Notes under the pieces: model-generated | Databases searched by the model: none | Seen by the model: the letters and a program-made list of their open reading frames with translations, nothing else | Told to the model about the DNA's origin: nothing | Shown here: in pieces, positions 8,554 through 14,505 of the stretch | Numbering within the stretch: the stretch's first letter is position 1 | Layout of the letters: the number at the start of each line of letters is the position of its first letter | Translations under genes and position numbers: made by a program | DNA from: Bdellovibrio sp. ZAP7 | Lineage (GTDB): Bacteria; Bdellovibrionota_B; Oligoflexia; Oligoflexales; RGVZ01 | Reading direction: 5' to 3' | Assembly (NCBI GenBank): GCA_945900755.1 | Contig: CAMDKS010000016.1 | Span: 1-64,000, forward strand | Length of the DNA: 64,000 nt

Positions 8554-8593
8554 CCTCAACTGAACTTTAAGCGATTTGATTGTGAGATCATTG

Positions 8594-9976
8594 ATGCTTC
8601 GCCCTTATGACGAACATCCTATTGCAGCTCTCGCTAGCGGCTCCGGACCCGGGGCCGTTGGCGTTATTAGGCTTTCTGGCGTTGACTGCTGGGAGGTCGT
8701 CCGACCTTGCTTAGGCGACGTAACGGCTCCGACCGAACGCCGAGTCTCCCTCAAAATTTTTAGAGACCCAAAAACACAGGAAGCCGTGGACGATCTCGTC
8801 GTCGTATTTTTTAAAGGTCCACGCTCGTACACGGGCCAAGACACGGTTGAACTTTACTGTCACGGCGGCCCTTATATTATTCAAAGAATTTTGGGCCTGC
8901 TCTACGCTCTTGGAGCTCGTCCCGCACAGGCGGGAGAGTTTACCAAAAGGGCCCTATTGAACGGCAAGCTCGATTTGACCGCAGCCGAGGGGATTAAAGA
9001 TCTCGTCGAGGCGCAGTCTCGGCAGCAGTGGCTTGCTGGTCGGCAGCTGTACTCAGGAAAACTAAAAGAAGAGATCGAGTCCCTTAGAAAAGAGGTGATC
9101 GGAGCCATGGCTTACCTAGAGGCCATGATCGATTTCCCTGACGAAGAAGACACACACCACGTGGGTCTTAGTCATGTGCGCACCAGATTAGTTACGGTCT
9201 CCCTGCAACTAACCTCCCTCGTCTCGACCTTTCAAAGCGGGCAGGTCGCAAGCCGCGGCCTCATGGTCGTGCTTGCAGGAGCGCCTAATGCCGGAAAATC
9301 CACACTACTCAATAAGCTTCTTGGACGACAACGGGCCATCGTCAGTGCGACGGCAGGAACGACCAGGGACTATATCGAAGAGTCTTGCTTGATCGATGGT
9401 CGACTTATACGCTTAGTCGACACCGCCGGTATTCGAGAAACCGCAGATCAAATTGAACGTGAGGGTGTGGCTCTTTCGACTAAATTAATTCAAGAGGCTG
9501 ACGTCGTCATTTCACTTAACGCCTCCGATTCGACTGCGTCTGATCGCGAAGGCATGACGTCTTTGATGACGTCTATTTACGAGCAAAACAGCCGTCTAAA
9601 AAACACGGCCATTATACCCCTTTTAACCAAATGTGACCATGCTAAACCCGCGTGGGCCTCTGAGATGTTACCCATTAGCTGCCTTACTGGCGACGGAGTC
9701 CGAGTCCTGCAAACGGCACTCGTGAAAATAGTGGATGAGCACACAGGTAGCCTTGAAGAACGTCCTTTTTTGACGTCACAAAGACAGCAATCTGCATTGT
9801 TAGCAGCCGAAACGGCACTGAATAAATTCAACCTCCAAGACCAACAAAAAGCCGGGCCTGAGATGCTCGCTTTTGAATTGCTGGAAGCGGCAAGAGCTTT
9901 GTCCTCCGTGGTCGGTGACATCTCAAATGAGGACATTTTAGATAAAGTGTTCAGCGAATTTTGTATCGGCAAATAA
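8594..9976 (+). CDS. mnmE: tRNA uridine-5-carboxymethylaminomethyl modification GTPase MnmE
   Basis: 460 aa from the ATG at 8594. The track begins at a TTG (8576) and an in-frame GTG lies at 8582; none has a strong ribosome-binding site, so the ATG was chosen by family length. With MnmG it modifies wobble uridine 34 of certain tRNAs. TrmE_N domain at about 1-118. The inserted G domain shows GAPNAGKST (G1), TAGTTRDY (G2), DTAGIRE (G3) and TKCD (G4). The C-terminal FCIGK supplies the conserved Cys. Last gene of the rpmH cluster. Confidence 0.95.
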   Translation: MLRPYDEHPIAALASGSGPGAVGVIRLSGVDCWEVVRPCLGDVTAPTERRVSLKIFRDPKTQEAVDDLVVVFFKGPRSYTGQDTVELYCHGGPYIIQRILGLLYALGARPAQAGEFTKRALLNGKLDLTAAEGIKDLVEAQSRQQWLAGRQLYSGKLKEEIESLRKEVIGAMAYLEAMIDFPDEEDTHHVGLSHVRTRLVTVSLQLTSLVSTFQSGQVASRGLMVVLAGAPNAGKSTLLNKLLGRQRAIVSATAGTTRDYIEESCLIDGRLIRLVDTAGIRETADQIEREGVALSTKLIQEADVVISLNASDSTASDREGMTSLMTSIYEQNSRLKNTAIIPLLTKCDHAKPAWASEMLPISCLTGDGVRVLQTALVKIVDEHTGSLEERPFLTSQRQQSALLAAETALNKFNLQDQQKAGPEMLAFELLEAARALSSVVGDISNEDILDKVFSEFCIGK

Positions 9977-10290: not shown

Positions 10291-10298
10291 GGTAAAAG
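10291..10298. repeat. Left 8-bp target-site duplication of the IS66 element
   Basis: GGTAAAAG immediately left of the element, repeated exactly at 13411-13418. Eight-base duplications are characteristic of the IS66 family. Confidence 0.9.
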
Positions 10299-10363
10299 GT
10301 AAGCCGTTCACCTACGGAGGTAGGCGCGCCCATCCAGATGTCGAATCGACATAGATTTTTAAA

Positions 10364-12340
10364 TTACTTTGCGGGAATATTTTGAGAGTAGGCCAAAGCC
10401 GTGTAAGCCTGAGGATTGGCGGCCACCTCGGTTAGTGATGCACGGAGTACGTAATTTACATATTCTTGCAGGGGCACTTGGGCGGCGATCGCAGTTTGCA
10501 AGGAAGATCGGTTGATGTCGAGTGCAAATCGGCCTTCGACGGAAGTTCTAAACAGAGAATTGGCTTGGATTAAATTTTCCATTCGGAGCATTCGTTCAGA
10601 GAAGTCATTTGAAATCGAAATAATTGGGTTATCGAGATAGGCGGTTAATTTTTGGTAGTGCCGCAAAATATAGTTTGCAGCAGCGCCGAGCTTCGTTGCT
10701 TTTGACCATTTTTCGGCGATAATTTCTGCCATTTCTTTGATGTCTTCCCAACTGGCTCGGCTATCGACACCGCGTACAGCGCGAGTGTTTATTTCATTGC
10801 GCCCATAGAGGTCGAGGCCTTTTTCATAAATGTATAGGCCCTTAAAAGAGTGCAAGATCATATCACATAGCTGTGGGTCCTCATTTTCGTATAGGGCAAA
10901 AGGCCGCCGTGCATGGCTGGCACAACCAGCCAGCTCAATATTAAAACGCGCGGCAAGTTCCGGATCTGATACAAGGTTGACAGTTGACAGATCAGATTGA
11001 ACAATCAAATTTTTGAATTCGGCCCGCCGACTGCGAAGACGGGCGGTCAATAAATTGCCGAATCCACCAATATGACTTCGGTAGAAAATGATTGCGCTGC
11101 GAGGGTCCTTGGCGTCACTTCGGCCTGAAATAACGGATGTTTGGAGTGACTTTTTCTGACCGTTGCCATCTTTGCGGTCGAATTCAAATCCAAGCTCCCG
11201 TGACAGCAGTACGCCGAGACTTGGCGAGGCTTCCGTCTTAAATGTATCTTCAGCGGCTTCTCGTGTTCGGTATGAAAACCACGGGGAATTGCCCGCGGCA
11301 GCAGGATTCGTTTGCTGTAATTTCATGAATCTGGCGTACTCCAAAACCCTAGTGGTCGTGTCGTCACCCGAAAGCAGCGGGGAGTTAGCAAGGCTGCGAA
11401 AATTGTGCAAATAAATTGGTGCAAAACGTTGTGCAACATAGCAAAACATCCGCGACAATGTTGCCGATGAAAATCGTTTTCCTGGCACGGTCAAAAGTGA
11501 GCCGAGACGGTTAAACGGCATCGCGTACTGGGACACCATGATGGTCATATTGGAGAGAAACTCCCATGTCACGTCCATCCTCGGAGGGCCGATATCGCGG
11601 GTACTCGCAGAAATAATTCGGGTCGAGGTTCCCTCGTCCTTTACCACGACTTTTTCAACTTCCACGGTGATTTTTGTAACCGTTAAATTGAAGTCATAGC
11701 GAGTTCGTTCGTCAGTCATCCGCGAGACCACATGTTCCCCGATCAATAGACCAGGCTCAACCTCTGACGTGACAAATTCTTCTTCGACTTTGACATCTCC
11801 GCCACGCATAAAAGCTTGTTTGGGCGACTCGAATTCCGGCTGCGGCCCGTCACCCAAGGCCATGCGTGCAAAGCCTTCGGCACACTCTTTTTCATTTTCA
11901 GCGAGCTCTTCAGCTGTCAGTGGAATTCGTTCTAAATCCATAAGTTTATTTTTCAATCCTATGGCTATACTTCCATTTTGCCTGGCCAGAGCCCTATGCC
12001 ACTTGCCCAGCCTTTGTAAGCGGTCCAATGACTCACGAATTTGGGCTATCGGATCTTTTGGCTTTGAATCCCCGGGATTAGTTGATCCGCCAATTGGGTC
12101 GCCACTATTCTTACGTTTTTCCGAAGAAGCGTCGATTCCCATGGCTCGACGCAACTGAAGTATGGCTGACCTCAAATTTGCTTGGTTTCCAGTCAGCCCC
12201 TTCAGTAATAAGTTATAATGGGAAATAACATCTTTGACTACATCAGGTATTGTGTCCTCATTTTTTGTCAGCCACGCGTCAAGCTCCTGCCTGGCATCAG
12301 GGCCAAGGTGGGGTTGTTTGTTTTTCAGGTTTCTTGCCAC
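10364..12340 (-). CDS. tnpC: IS66-family transposase TnpC, long form
   Basis: 658 aa from a GTG start, longer than the usual roughly 500-aa TnpC. The N-terminal helical part includes QLRRAMGIDASSEKR, matching the family's LRR..FG.SSEK motif. The catalytic region has DDT (D326/327), a second Asp in VQSDLSTV (D450), then AGCASHARRPF matching the IS66 AGC.AHARR box, and SNDFSERMLR (E582) matching N..AER.LR. The DDE triad therefore appears intact. The CxxC zinc-finger box normally between the N-terminal helix and the core was not seen. Poor ribosome-binding site. Confidence 0.9.
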   Translation of the reverse strand: MARNLKNKQPHLGPDARQELDAWLTKNEDTIPDVVKDVISHYNLLLKGLTGNQANLRSAILQLRRAMGIDASSEKRKNSGDPIGGSTNPGDSKPKDPIAQIRESLDRLQRLGKWHRALARQNGSIAIGLKNKLMDLERIPLTAEELAENEKECAEGFARMALGDGPQPEFESPKQAFMRGGDVKVEEEFVTSEVEPGLLIGEHVVSRMTDERTRYDFNLTVTKITVEVEKVVVKDEGTSTRIISASTRDIGPPRMDVTWEFLSNMTIMVSQYAMPFNRLGSLLTVPGKRFSSATLSRMFCYVAQRFAPIYLHNFRSLANSPLLSGDDTTTRVLEYARFMKLQQTNPAAAGNSPWFSYRTREAAEDTFKTEASPSLGVLLSRELGFEFDRKDGNGQKKSLQTSVISGRSDAKDPRSAIIFYRSHIGGFGNLLTARLRSRRAEFKNLIVQSDLSTVNLVSDPELAARFNIELAGCASHARRPFALYENEDPQLCDMILHSFKGLYIYEKGLDLYGRNEINTRAVRGVDSRASWEDIKEMAEIIAEKWSKATKLGAAANYILRHYQKLTAYLDNPIISISNDFSERMLRMENLIQANSLFRTSVEGRFALDINRSSLQTAIAAQVPLQEYVNYVLRASLTEVAANPQAYTALAYSQNIPAK

Positions 12341-12609
12341 GCTGATTAATTACTTTCTCTTTAATTTCTAAAAAGATCGTAACACGTGTTTTTTAAAGCA
12401 GATTTTTCGCTCTAGGATCCATTCTGCTGCGATAGAATTTCGGACCCGAGGCTCTCGATGTTAAGTGCTTATAAAACTCATAGGTCAGGCCATTATCCAC
12501 TGGTGCATAGCCGCACGCGCTGGGTCGTGTCACATCATAAAAACCGCTGATTTACACAAAAACACTGTCAAGTAAAAAACGCATTAATAAAAAATAAATT
12601 GACGAATTG
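12341..12609. other. Non-coding gap inside the IS66 element
   Basis: About 270 bp between tnpB and tnpC with no open frame of note. AT-rich near both edges. It may carry the tnpC promoter or leader, or be what is left of an accessory ORF; neither can be decided by eye. Confidence 0.35.
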
Positions 12610-12960
12610 TCACTCTATTTTTTTCCACTCTTTCACGCGTCGGTGGACAGTAAAAGATGCGCCTTCAAATAATAAACTCAACTCGGCCAAGGTGATGACT
12701 TTGCATAACGGATCTCGCACAAAAGTAAAGTTGGCCCGCAAACTCCCACCCTCAAACCTTCGGCAAATGAGATAGAGGCCAAGCTTGTCCCCTGTTAATG
12801 CTCGAAGCTGTGTGTGGTCACCTTTCAAAAAAACGACACAATCACCGGCATACGGGTCGGCGCCCAAGCGGTAGGATTCGCCCAGCAGCCCATCAAATCG
12901 TTTTCTAAAATCTGCCCGATGGTGCGCAACCAAAACACGGCGTATCATGGATGGTAGCAT
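12610..12960 (-). CDS. tnpB: IS66-family accessory protein TnpB
   Basis: 116 aa. Matches the TnpB (IS66 Orf2) pattern: RRVLVAHHRADFRKRFDGL (family: VWLA.G.TDMRKGFDGL), then DPYAGDCVVFLKGDH, GLYLICRRFEGG and LAELSLLFEGASF. TnpB is required for transposition of IS66 elements, though its biochemical role is unsettled. It starts 12 bp after the tnpA stop. Confidence 0.9.
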   Translation of the reverse strand: MLPSMIRRVLVAHHRADFRKRFDGLLGESYRLGADPYAGDCVVFLKGDHTQLRALTGDKLGLYLICRRFEGGSLRANFTFVRDPLCKVITLAELSLLFEGASFTVHRRVKEWKKIE

Positions 12961-12972
12961 TTTAGCGCCTCA

Positions 12973-13320
12973 TCAAAATGTAAAGTCGAGCATTAAACGG
13001 CCATCTTCATACGACATATGAAGCCCCGGCGGCAGGCCGCCGGTGTGCGGACTAGGCTCCACATCTAGAATTCTCGGTGGAGTCTTGGCCTCAACTGACG
13101 CGCACTCTGGCCCCGCCTTTTTTTGCCAAATTGCCAATTGAGTGCTGCTCAAACCAGTGGCCCTCGATACCAGCCTTGGCGCCAGGCCACTCACAATAGC
13201 AGCAAGAACGGCCTGCCTCAGTTCGCGAGGAAACGGTGTGGAGCGCATGCGCTGCGCGCGAAATGCCTCAAAATCGGTTTTTAGCGCTAAAAGAATCGCT
13301 TGGCTTTCGGAAACTTTCAC
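12973..13320 (-). CDS. tnpA: IS66-family accessory protein TnpA (HTH)
   Basis: 115 aa, first gene of the IS66 element, beginning 90 bp inside its right terminus. A helix-turn-helix-like stretch at about 29-65 (FPRELRQAVLAAIVSGLAPRLVSRATGLSSTQLAIWQ) resembles the IS66 Orf1 / IS3-type N-terminal HTH. The C-terminal half is short and Pro-rich. Assignment rests on the HTH and on position next to a clear tnpB. Confidence 0.8.
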   Translation of the reverse strand: MKVSESQAILLALKTDFEAFRAQRMRSTPFPRELRQAVLAAIVSGLAPRLVSRATGLSSTQLAIWQKKAGPECASVEAKTPPRILDVEPSPHTGGLPPGLHMSYEDGRLMLDFTF

Positions 13321-13407
13321 GGTGTGACCTCCATCACAAGTTCATTGTTAGTGGAGGCCAAGGTATCGGGCTAATTAAATATTGTCTCTATGCGTGGGTG
13401 AACGGCT

Positions 13408-13476
13408 TACGGTAAAAGTCCAAAATTCAAAATTTGGACTGTGGATATGCCGTTCTGAAAAATATTGCTTATCCAT
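13408..13476 (-). pseudogene. Short coupled ORF cut by the IS66 insertion
   Basis: ATG at 13476 follows the HD-gene stop directly (TAAATGG) and GGAGGAGAT lies within that gene's last codons, an excellent translational-coupling signal. The reading frame MDKQYFSERHIHSPNFEF continues into the IS66 right end after about 22 codons. Joining across the target site, the ancestral frame would have stopped only two codons later. It was therefore a tiny or already truncated gene. No function assignable. Confidence 0.35.
13411..13418. repeat. Right 8-bp target-site duplication of the IS66 element
   Basis: GGTAAAAG, identical to 10291-10298, directly outside the right terminal inverted repeat. Confidence 0.9.
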
Positions 13477-14109
13477 TTATATCTCCTCCTTGAGTGAAGA
13501 TAAATAGACCTTCATCACCTCAACTCTTTTCTTACCTTCTTCAATTCCGGATTTTGTTTTTAGAGTTTCAGCAATTATAAATAGTTTTTTGTAAAAGTGA
13601 TCCACTGTAAATCTTGAATCATCTGGTGCTCTACTAATACAGAATGGATCTTCACCTTCATAGAATGCCCTCTTCATAAGCCCAGCGGTAGCAAAGCATC
13701 TTGCAATACCAATGGCACCCAATCCATCTAAACGATCGGCATCTTGTACAATTTTAGCCTCAAGTGTTTTTGCTTCAATGTTCGCACTAAAACTATGAGC
13801 CTCAATTGCGTGGGCTATTTCGTTTTGATACTTTTCAGGGTAACCAATCGAAGATAAGAATTCTATGGCCTTCTCTGCAGCTATACGTGAAGCCTGATGA
13901 CGAAGAGGGCTATCTTTAGGAACAATAACAAAATCATGAAGCCAAGCGGCTGGGCCGACAATTTCAGGATTTCCACCTTCTCGATCACAAATTTCTTTTG
14001 CTAACCTGACAACTCTTTTAAAATGGAGTAGGTCGTGCGCTGGATCATCACTAGAAGCGATCTGTGAGATTTTAGCTTCAAATTGCTGCTCCCAACCCAA
14101 TAAATTCAT
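13477..14109 (-). CDS. HD-domain phosphohydrolase (YedJ/YpgQ-like)
   Basis: 210 aa from the ATG at 14109, which has TGGAGA nine bases upstream; the track's 14196 start adds an unlikely 29-residue leader. Metal-binding HD pattern: His in HDLLHFKRVV, His-Asp in AAWLHDFV, and Asp in QDADRLDGLGAIGIAR. The family hydrolyses phosphorylated compounds such as nucleotides; the substrate here is unknown. The gene looks more AT-rich than the mnmE cluster and lies in the accessory island beside the IS66 element, suggesting acquisition. Confidence 0.88.
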   Translation of the reverse strand: MNLLGWEQQFEAKISQIASSDDPAHDLLHFKRVVRLAKEICDREGGNPEIVGPAAWLHDFVIVPKDSPLRHQASRIAAEKAIEFLSSIGYPEKYQNEIAHAIEAHSFSANIEAKTLEAKIVQDADRLDGLGAIGIARCFATAGLMKRAFYEGEDPFCISRAPDDSRFTVDHFYKKLFIIAETLKTKSGIEEGKKRVEVMKVYLSSLKEEI

Positions 14110-14189
14110 AGAAATGTCTCCATTATTTTTTTGTGCTAAATTATTATGATCTAACTTTTCCATTTTTAAGAAAACTTGGCAACAAACTA

Positions 14190-14505
14190 ATGGCAAGTGT
14201 CCAAGTTGACTAAGACTGAGGTTGACCCGAAATTGTCAGCGGAAGTCCTCGCAGATTTTTTATATTTTGCTAGTGGTATTAGTATGGTCGCAGGAGTATT
14301 TCTTGCATGCGTTTGATGGCAGAAGAAAGGCAAATGGGTACACTCGTATTGCTATTTTCGTCGCCAATATCACAACGGCAGATTCTCTACGGTAAATTTC
14401 TATCGGCTCTTTTTTACATGATTTTGCAAGTAGTGTCACTCTATATGCCTGCACTTGTGATGGAGGTAGGTGGCGTCGTGGCCTTCGAAGATAAGCGAAA
14501 ACCGT
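14190..14505 (+). pseudogene. Frameshifted ABC-2 type permease remnant (GldF-like)
   Basis: One plus frame from about 14190 reads SAEVLADFLYFASGISMV and ends VFLA. A shift at about 14304-14307 then gives MRLMAEERQMGTLVLLFSSP followed by GKFLSALFYM. Together they reproduce the ABC-2/GldF pattern ...MRL.AEE...GT..LL...P......GK. Both ends of the expected protein (about 240 aa or more) are missing, and no ATP-binding partner is nearby. A decayed, truncated gene. Confidence 0.65.

Follow-up and report, generated by a model that had tools for sequence, protein, structure and literature searches.

The 64,000-nucleotide stretch of Bdellovibrio sp. ZAP7 DNA analysed here (the window) carries on its minus strand an IS66-type insertion sequence of 3112 bp (10299-13410), which we regard with high confidence as an intact and probably functional element of a clade whose transposase, TnpC, is without a zinc finger. 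The element is delimited by 18-nt terminal inverted repeats at 10299-10316 (plus strand, tnpC end) and 13393-13410 (minus strand, tnpA end) that are complementary at 17 of 18 positions and both start outward with GTAAGCCGTTCACC, following the IS66 family rule that matched ends begin with GTAA. An exact copy of the 8-bp target-site duplication GGTAAAAG lies on either side (10291-10298 and 13411-13418), as is typical of IS66; the probability that two given places share an 8-mer exactly by chance is about 1.5e-5, with the other evidence not yet counted. Between the ends lie three genes, all open and all on the minus strand, in the order tnpA-tnpB-tnpC that is also found in the relatives. The first-pass annotation had already proposed these termini, the duplication and the gene order, and all were borne out. 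The element sits between mnmE (8576-9976, plus strand) and an HD-domain gene (13477-14196, minus strand), neither of which is interrupted, and promoter and terminator scans gave nothing above chance. A search of the same genome for further copies found this one intact copy and a 273-bp relic, 89% identical to the tnpC-proximal end, on contig C30, so that the host lineage has encountered such elements more than once. As the intact copy is the only one in its genome, the case for recent activity is carried by the perfect target duplication and the open genes.

The gene upstream of tnpC is tnpB (12610-12960, minus strand), coding for a 116-aa accessory protein similar to IS66 Orf2 that matches PF05717 well above the Pfam cut-off (41.5 bits against 26.6, E=1.3e-10) and is 83% identical to the TnpB of a relative (L025). 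This is the TnpB upstream of tnpC that is expected of an IS66 element. The next gene (12973-13320, minus strand) codes for a putative helix-turn-helix accessory protein of 115 aa, which has the place and length of an IS66 TnpA and 42% identity to the TnpA of L025, with weaker matches to those of L064, L065 and L114. Its profile scores fall below cut-off (HTH_Tnp_1, E=0.21 in Pfam; NF047593, 14.2 bits against 28 in NCBIfam), so it is called TnpA by position and relatives and not by Pfam. In another locus the ORF at the tnpA position (L007:448-1041) is 197 aa long, against the usual 115-140 aa, and reads like two HTH-like modules in tandem.

TnpC itself (10364-12340, minus strand, GTG start) is a DDE transposase of 658 aa. 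A start further upstream was considered and rejected, the frame being open for three more codons only (661 against 658 aa). The profile search placed TnpC in the broad IS66 family with a clear match to the DDE domain PF03050 (91 bits, cut-off 23.1, E=1.1e-25), and D326, D450 and E582 align with the catalytic residues of 13 other IS66 TnpCs. Of the residues named by the first-pass annotation D450 and E582 thus stand, and the first aspartate, given there as D326 or D327, is most likely D326, which in the alignment pairs with the D of the canonical DET. The spacing from the second aspartate to the glutamate is ordinary (132 aa, against 123-134 in the aligned IS66 TnpCs). The spacing between the two aspartates is not: they lie 123 aa apart in the window TnpC and 101-148 aa apart across the clade, whereas canonical IS66 has 50-63 aa here and a second type considered below has 73-75 aa. 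A helical insertion at about aa 333-396 (11153-11344, minus strand) accounts for the difference and also splits the PF03050 match into two stretches.

This insertion is one of two additions to TnpC, the other lying between the N-terminal helix and the site of the finger. There the alignment and an AlphaFold model show extra helices at aa 97-160 (11861-12052, minus strand) that are not found in other IS66 TnpCs; model confidence over them is mixed, and below 50 for aa 121-141. Upstream of them a long helix is predicted at aa 33-66 (12143-12244, minus strand), where IS66 transposases have their leucine zipper, and corresponding to helix 31-64 in the model of a zinc-finger-bearing TnpC (L013). 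The two models, of moderate confidence (pLDDT 70.5 for the window TnpC and 67.3 for L013) and compared by secondary structure without superposition, run alike from an N-terminal helix through a hairpin and three helices to an RNase H-like core. Foldseek searches of the PDB and of viral models gave no significant match, and the window TnpC sequence had no match among those of solved structures. The length of TnpC is due to the extra helices and the insertion in the catalytic domain, not to a new catalytic mechanism, and as regards mechanism there is hardly any doubt that the element is a conventional IS66 DDE transposon.

The absence of the zinc finger had been proposed from the lack of a CxxC pair before the catalytic core. 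In accordance with this, zf-IS66 (PF13005) gave no Pfam match to the window TnpC at E<=1 and none was found in the scanned relatives. The same search recovered zf-IS66 in 6 of 10 comparison IS66 TnpCs, two of them under the curated cut-off, and it missed the finger in L013, L014 and L099, each of which has two visible CxxC pairs, so that absence from Pfam is by itself weak evidence. That blindness could be taken to mean that the element is a canonical IS66 whose finger has diverged beyond the reach of Pfam, a reading that the residues make very hard to sustain. The window TnpC contains four cysteines (153, 300, 473 and 492) and no CxxC; C153 is the only one within residues 1-299, a region where most members of the clade have none, and the finger position is free of CxxC in all 12 aligned zinc-finger-less members. 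Moreover other residues stand one for one where the second knuckle would be, as the alignment of MEQLRCNACGKIFRA in L013 with VETVTDPRKGKSVTA in L034 shows. It is these residues, two CxxC pairs in L013, L014 and L099 against none in the window TnpC, that decide for loss of the finger. What is predicted to remain is a beta-hairpin at the same place, aa 203-244 (11609-11734, minus strand), with strands at 203-217, 221-234 and 240-244 in the window model and at 144-157, 163-174 and 180-182 in that of L013; the CxxC pairs at its base are present in L013 only.

Relatives were collected from genome contigs by an alignment-based scan, a single-protein scan having given none, and they fall in Oligoflexia, Myxococcota and one MAG labelled Actinomycetota. 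The closest (66-68%) are in Oligoflexus MAGs, followed at 43-48% by Sandaracinaceae, Myxococcales, Polyangiaceae and the Actinomycetota MAG, an assignment that is uncertain since MAG taxonomy can be wrong; distant relatives (about 30%) come from Oligoflexia and a Silvanigrella MAG. The clade was rare in wider samples, with 2 of 379, 1 of 397 and 4 of 290 genomes positive, seed genomes included in each count. No relatives were found on viral contigs, and 72,556 plasmids held none of at least 60% protein identity, only distant IS66 TnpCs. In one genome (G1003) three contigs (L114, L115 and L116) end at or inside copies of the zinc-finger-less TnpC type, a pattern that a multicopy element would produce by breaking the assembly. 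In two other loci (L065:927-3088 and L066:1237-3064) tnpC lies in two overlapping frames, which could reflect a disrupted gene, a sequencing error or a programmed frameshift.

Eleven zinc-finger-less TnpCs form a single clade, with support of 100/99 on the full alignment and 100/97 on core columns from which the finger and insertion columns were left out; the trees are unrooted, and the term clade assumes a root among the other IS66 TnpCs. The divergent, zinc-finger-less TnpC noticed in the first pass is therefore a member of a real and well-supported lineage, and the window element is not unique but belongs to a small, widely scattered IS66 branch. Its sister in both trees is a DD-type IS66 lineage that keeps the CxxC pairs, represented by L013 and L014 from Oligoflexia and by L099 from Vibrio casei plasmid 1 (WP_110957756.1). 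Like the window TnpC, these proteins have DD at the first catalytic site, and the hairpin is predicted alike in L013; the motif after the N-terminal helix is also similar (LGMVSASE in L013, MGIDASSE in the window). Unlike it, they retain two CxxC pairs, have no extra helices and show the shorter aspartate spacing given above.

Upstream of tnpC the element has a gap of 269 bp (12341-12609, minus strand), initially described as 270 bp long; its non-coding character stands. It gave no Rfam match and no unusual RNA fold (z=-0.16). As a mark of a subgroup the gap is not diagnostic: only the closest relatives share it, namely L025 (222 bp) and, up to the point where its contig ends, L004. The remaining members have about 30-70 bp (58 bp in L062, 32 bp in L064) or a druA-like gene. 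About 60 nt before tnpC are partly conserved between the window, L025 and L004, and this stretch may be an operator or a leader. It includes a palindrome, AACACGTGTT (12381-12390, about 40 nt before tnpC), that is a candidate operator, identical in L004 and degenerate in L025; taken by itself, its sequence is not rarer than expected by chance.

The druA-like genes (PF14236) occupy the position of the gap. Two zinc-finger-less members carry one immediately 5' of tnpC (L066:329-1240 and L063:77-946, E about 1e-26), and so do two zinc-finger-bearing elements (L076:978-1880 and L103:1234-2112). The IS66 genes around the slot are those of the window element, with tnpB just upstream of the druA-like gene in L066, L076 and L103 and not found on the L063 contig; the window element has no druA. 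One might then suppose that the window element is decaying, having lost its finger and also a passenger whose deletion left the 269-bp gap, and is no longer mobile, the more so as its genome contains the relic of another copy. We consider this improbable: each of the three genes has an open frame, both ends and the target duplication are intact, the loss of the finger is common to the whole clade across phyla, and a related gap is kept in L025. Similarity of the gap to DruA is also at chance level (best E 0.4), and we do not claim it as a deletion scar.

Further druA-like sequences were seen in the genome of L066, namely a second, partial druA that matches the IS-borne copy at about 95% identity (L105:946-1494) and an ORF of 642 aa whose C-terminal half contains a DruA domain (L104:1715-3643). 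On plasmids of Sphingobium (L100:2917-3525) and Niveispirillum (L102:2899-3402) a UPF0149 gene overlaps the end of an IS66 transposase gene and is a possible IS66 passenger.

Judged by its sequence the window element belongs to the broadly defined IS66 family and lacks the zinc finger of the canonical group. It resembles IS66 proper (ISPpa5a, ISPpa7) in gene order, matched ends, 8-bp duplication, PF05717 TnpB and PF03050 core. Two Paracoccus IS66 elements measure 2731-2829 bp, with ends of 22-35 bp and an 8-bp duplication (PMC3281130). The window TnpC differs from IS66 proper in having neither zf-IS66 nor a match to LZ_Tnp_IS66, in a C-terminal Pfam element that is absent or sub-threshold, and in its length (against about 490-545 aa); it scores 110 bits against the NCBIfam IS66 equivalog NF033517, under the cut-off of 180 bits. 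The broad family also includes the ISBst12 subgroup, whose members have neither tnpA nor tnpB; the window element, with its tnpB and tnpA-like ORF, is not of this tnpC-alone kind. In the literature on IS66 and DruA, which we covered incompletely, no description of the zinc-finger-less clade was found. With slightly less than even confidence, we propose that the clade is an IS66 subgroup of its own that has not yet been named. In this subgroup a metal-free hairpin and new helices would take the place of the finger, and a slot for a druA-like passenger between tnpB and tnpC would be common to it and to some IS66 elements with a zinc finger.

These features lead us to the following picture of transposition. 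TnpC would act as a DDE transposase that binds the GTAAGCC... ends and dimerises via its N-terminal helix, D326, D450 and E582 would cut and join DNA, with staggered joining giving the 8-bp target duplication, and TnpA and TnpB would serve as accessory proteins. In the clade the hairpin has lost the zinc knuckle of four cysteines from its base and would work metal-free, the extra helices probably stabilising it or taking over recognition of the ends.

What the three proteins of IS66 elements do is poorly understood. That a natural clade has lost the finger and is nevertheless intact and present in different phyla suggests that TnpC can do without it in such a context, and indicates which parts may now perform its function. 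Some relatives have a druA-like gene placed between tnpB and tnpC, which connects IS66 elements with a gene family known from the Druantia defence system.
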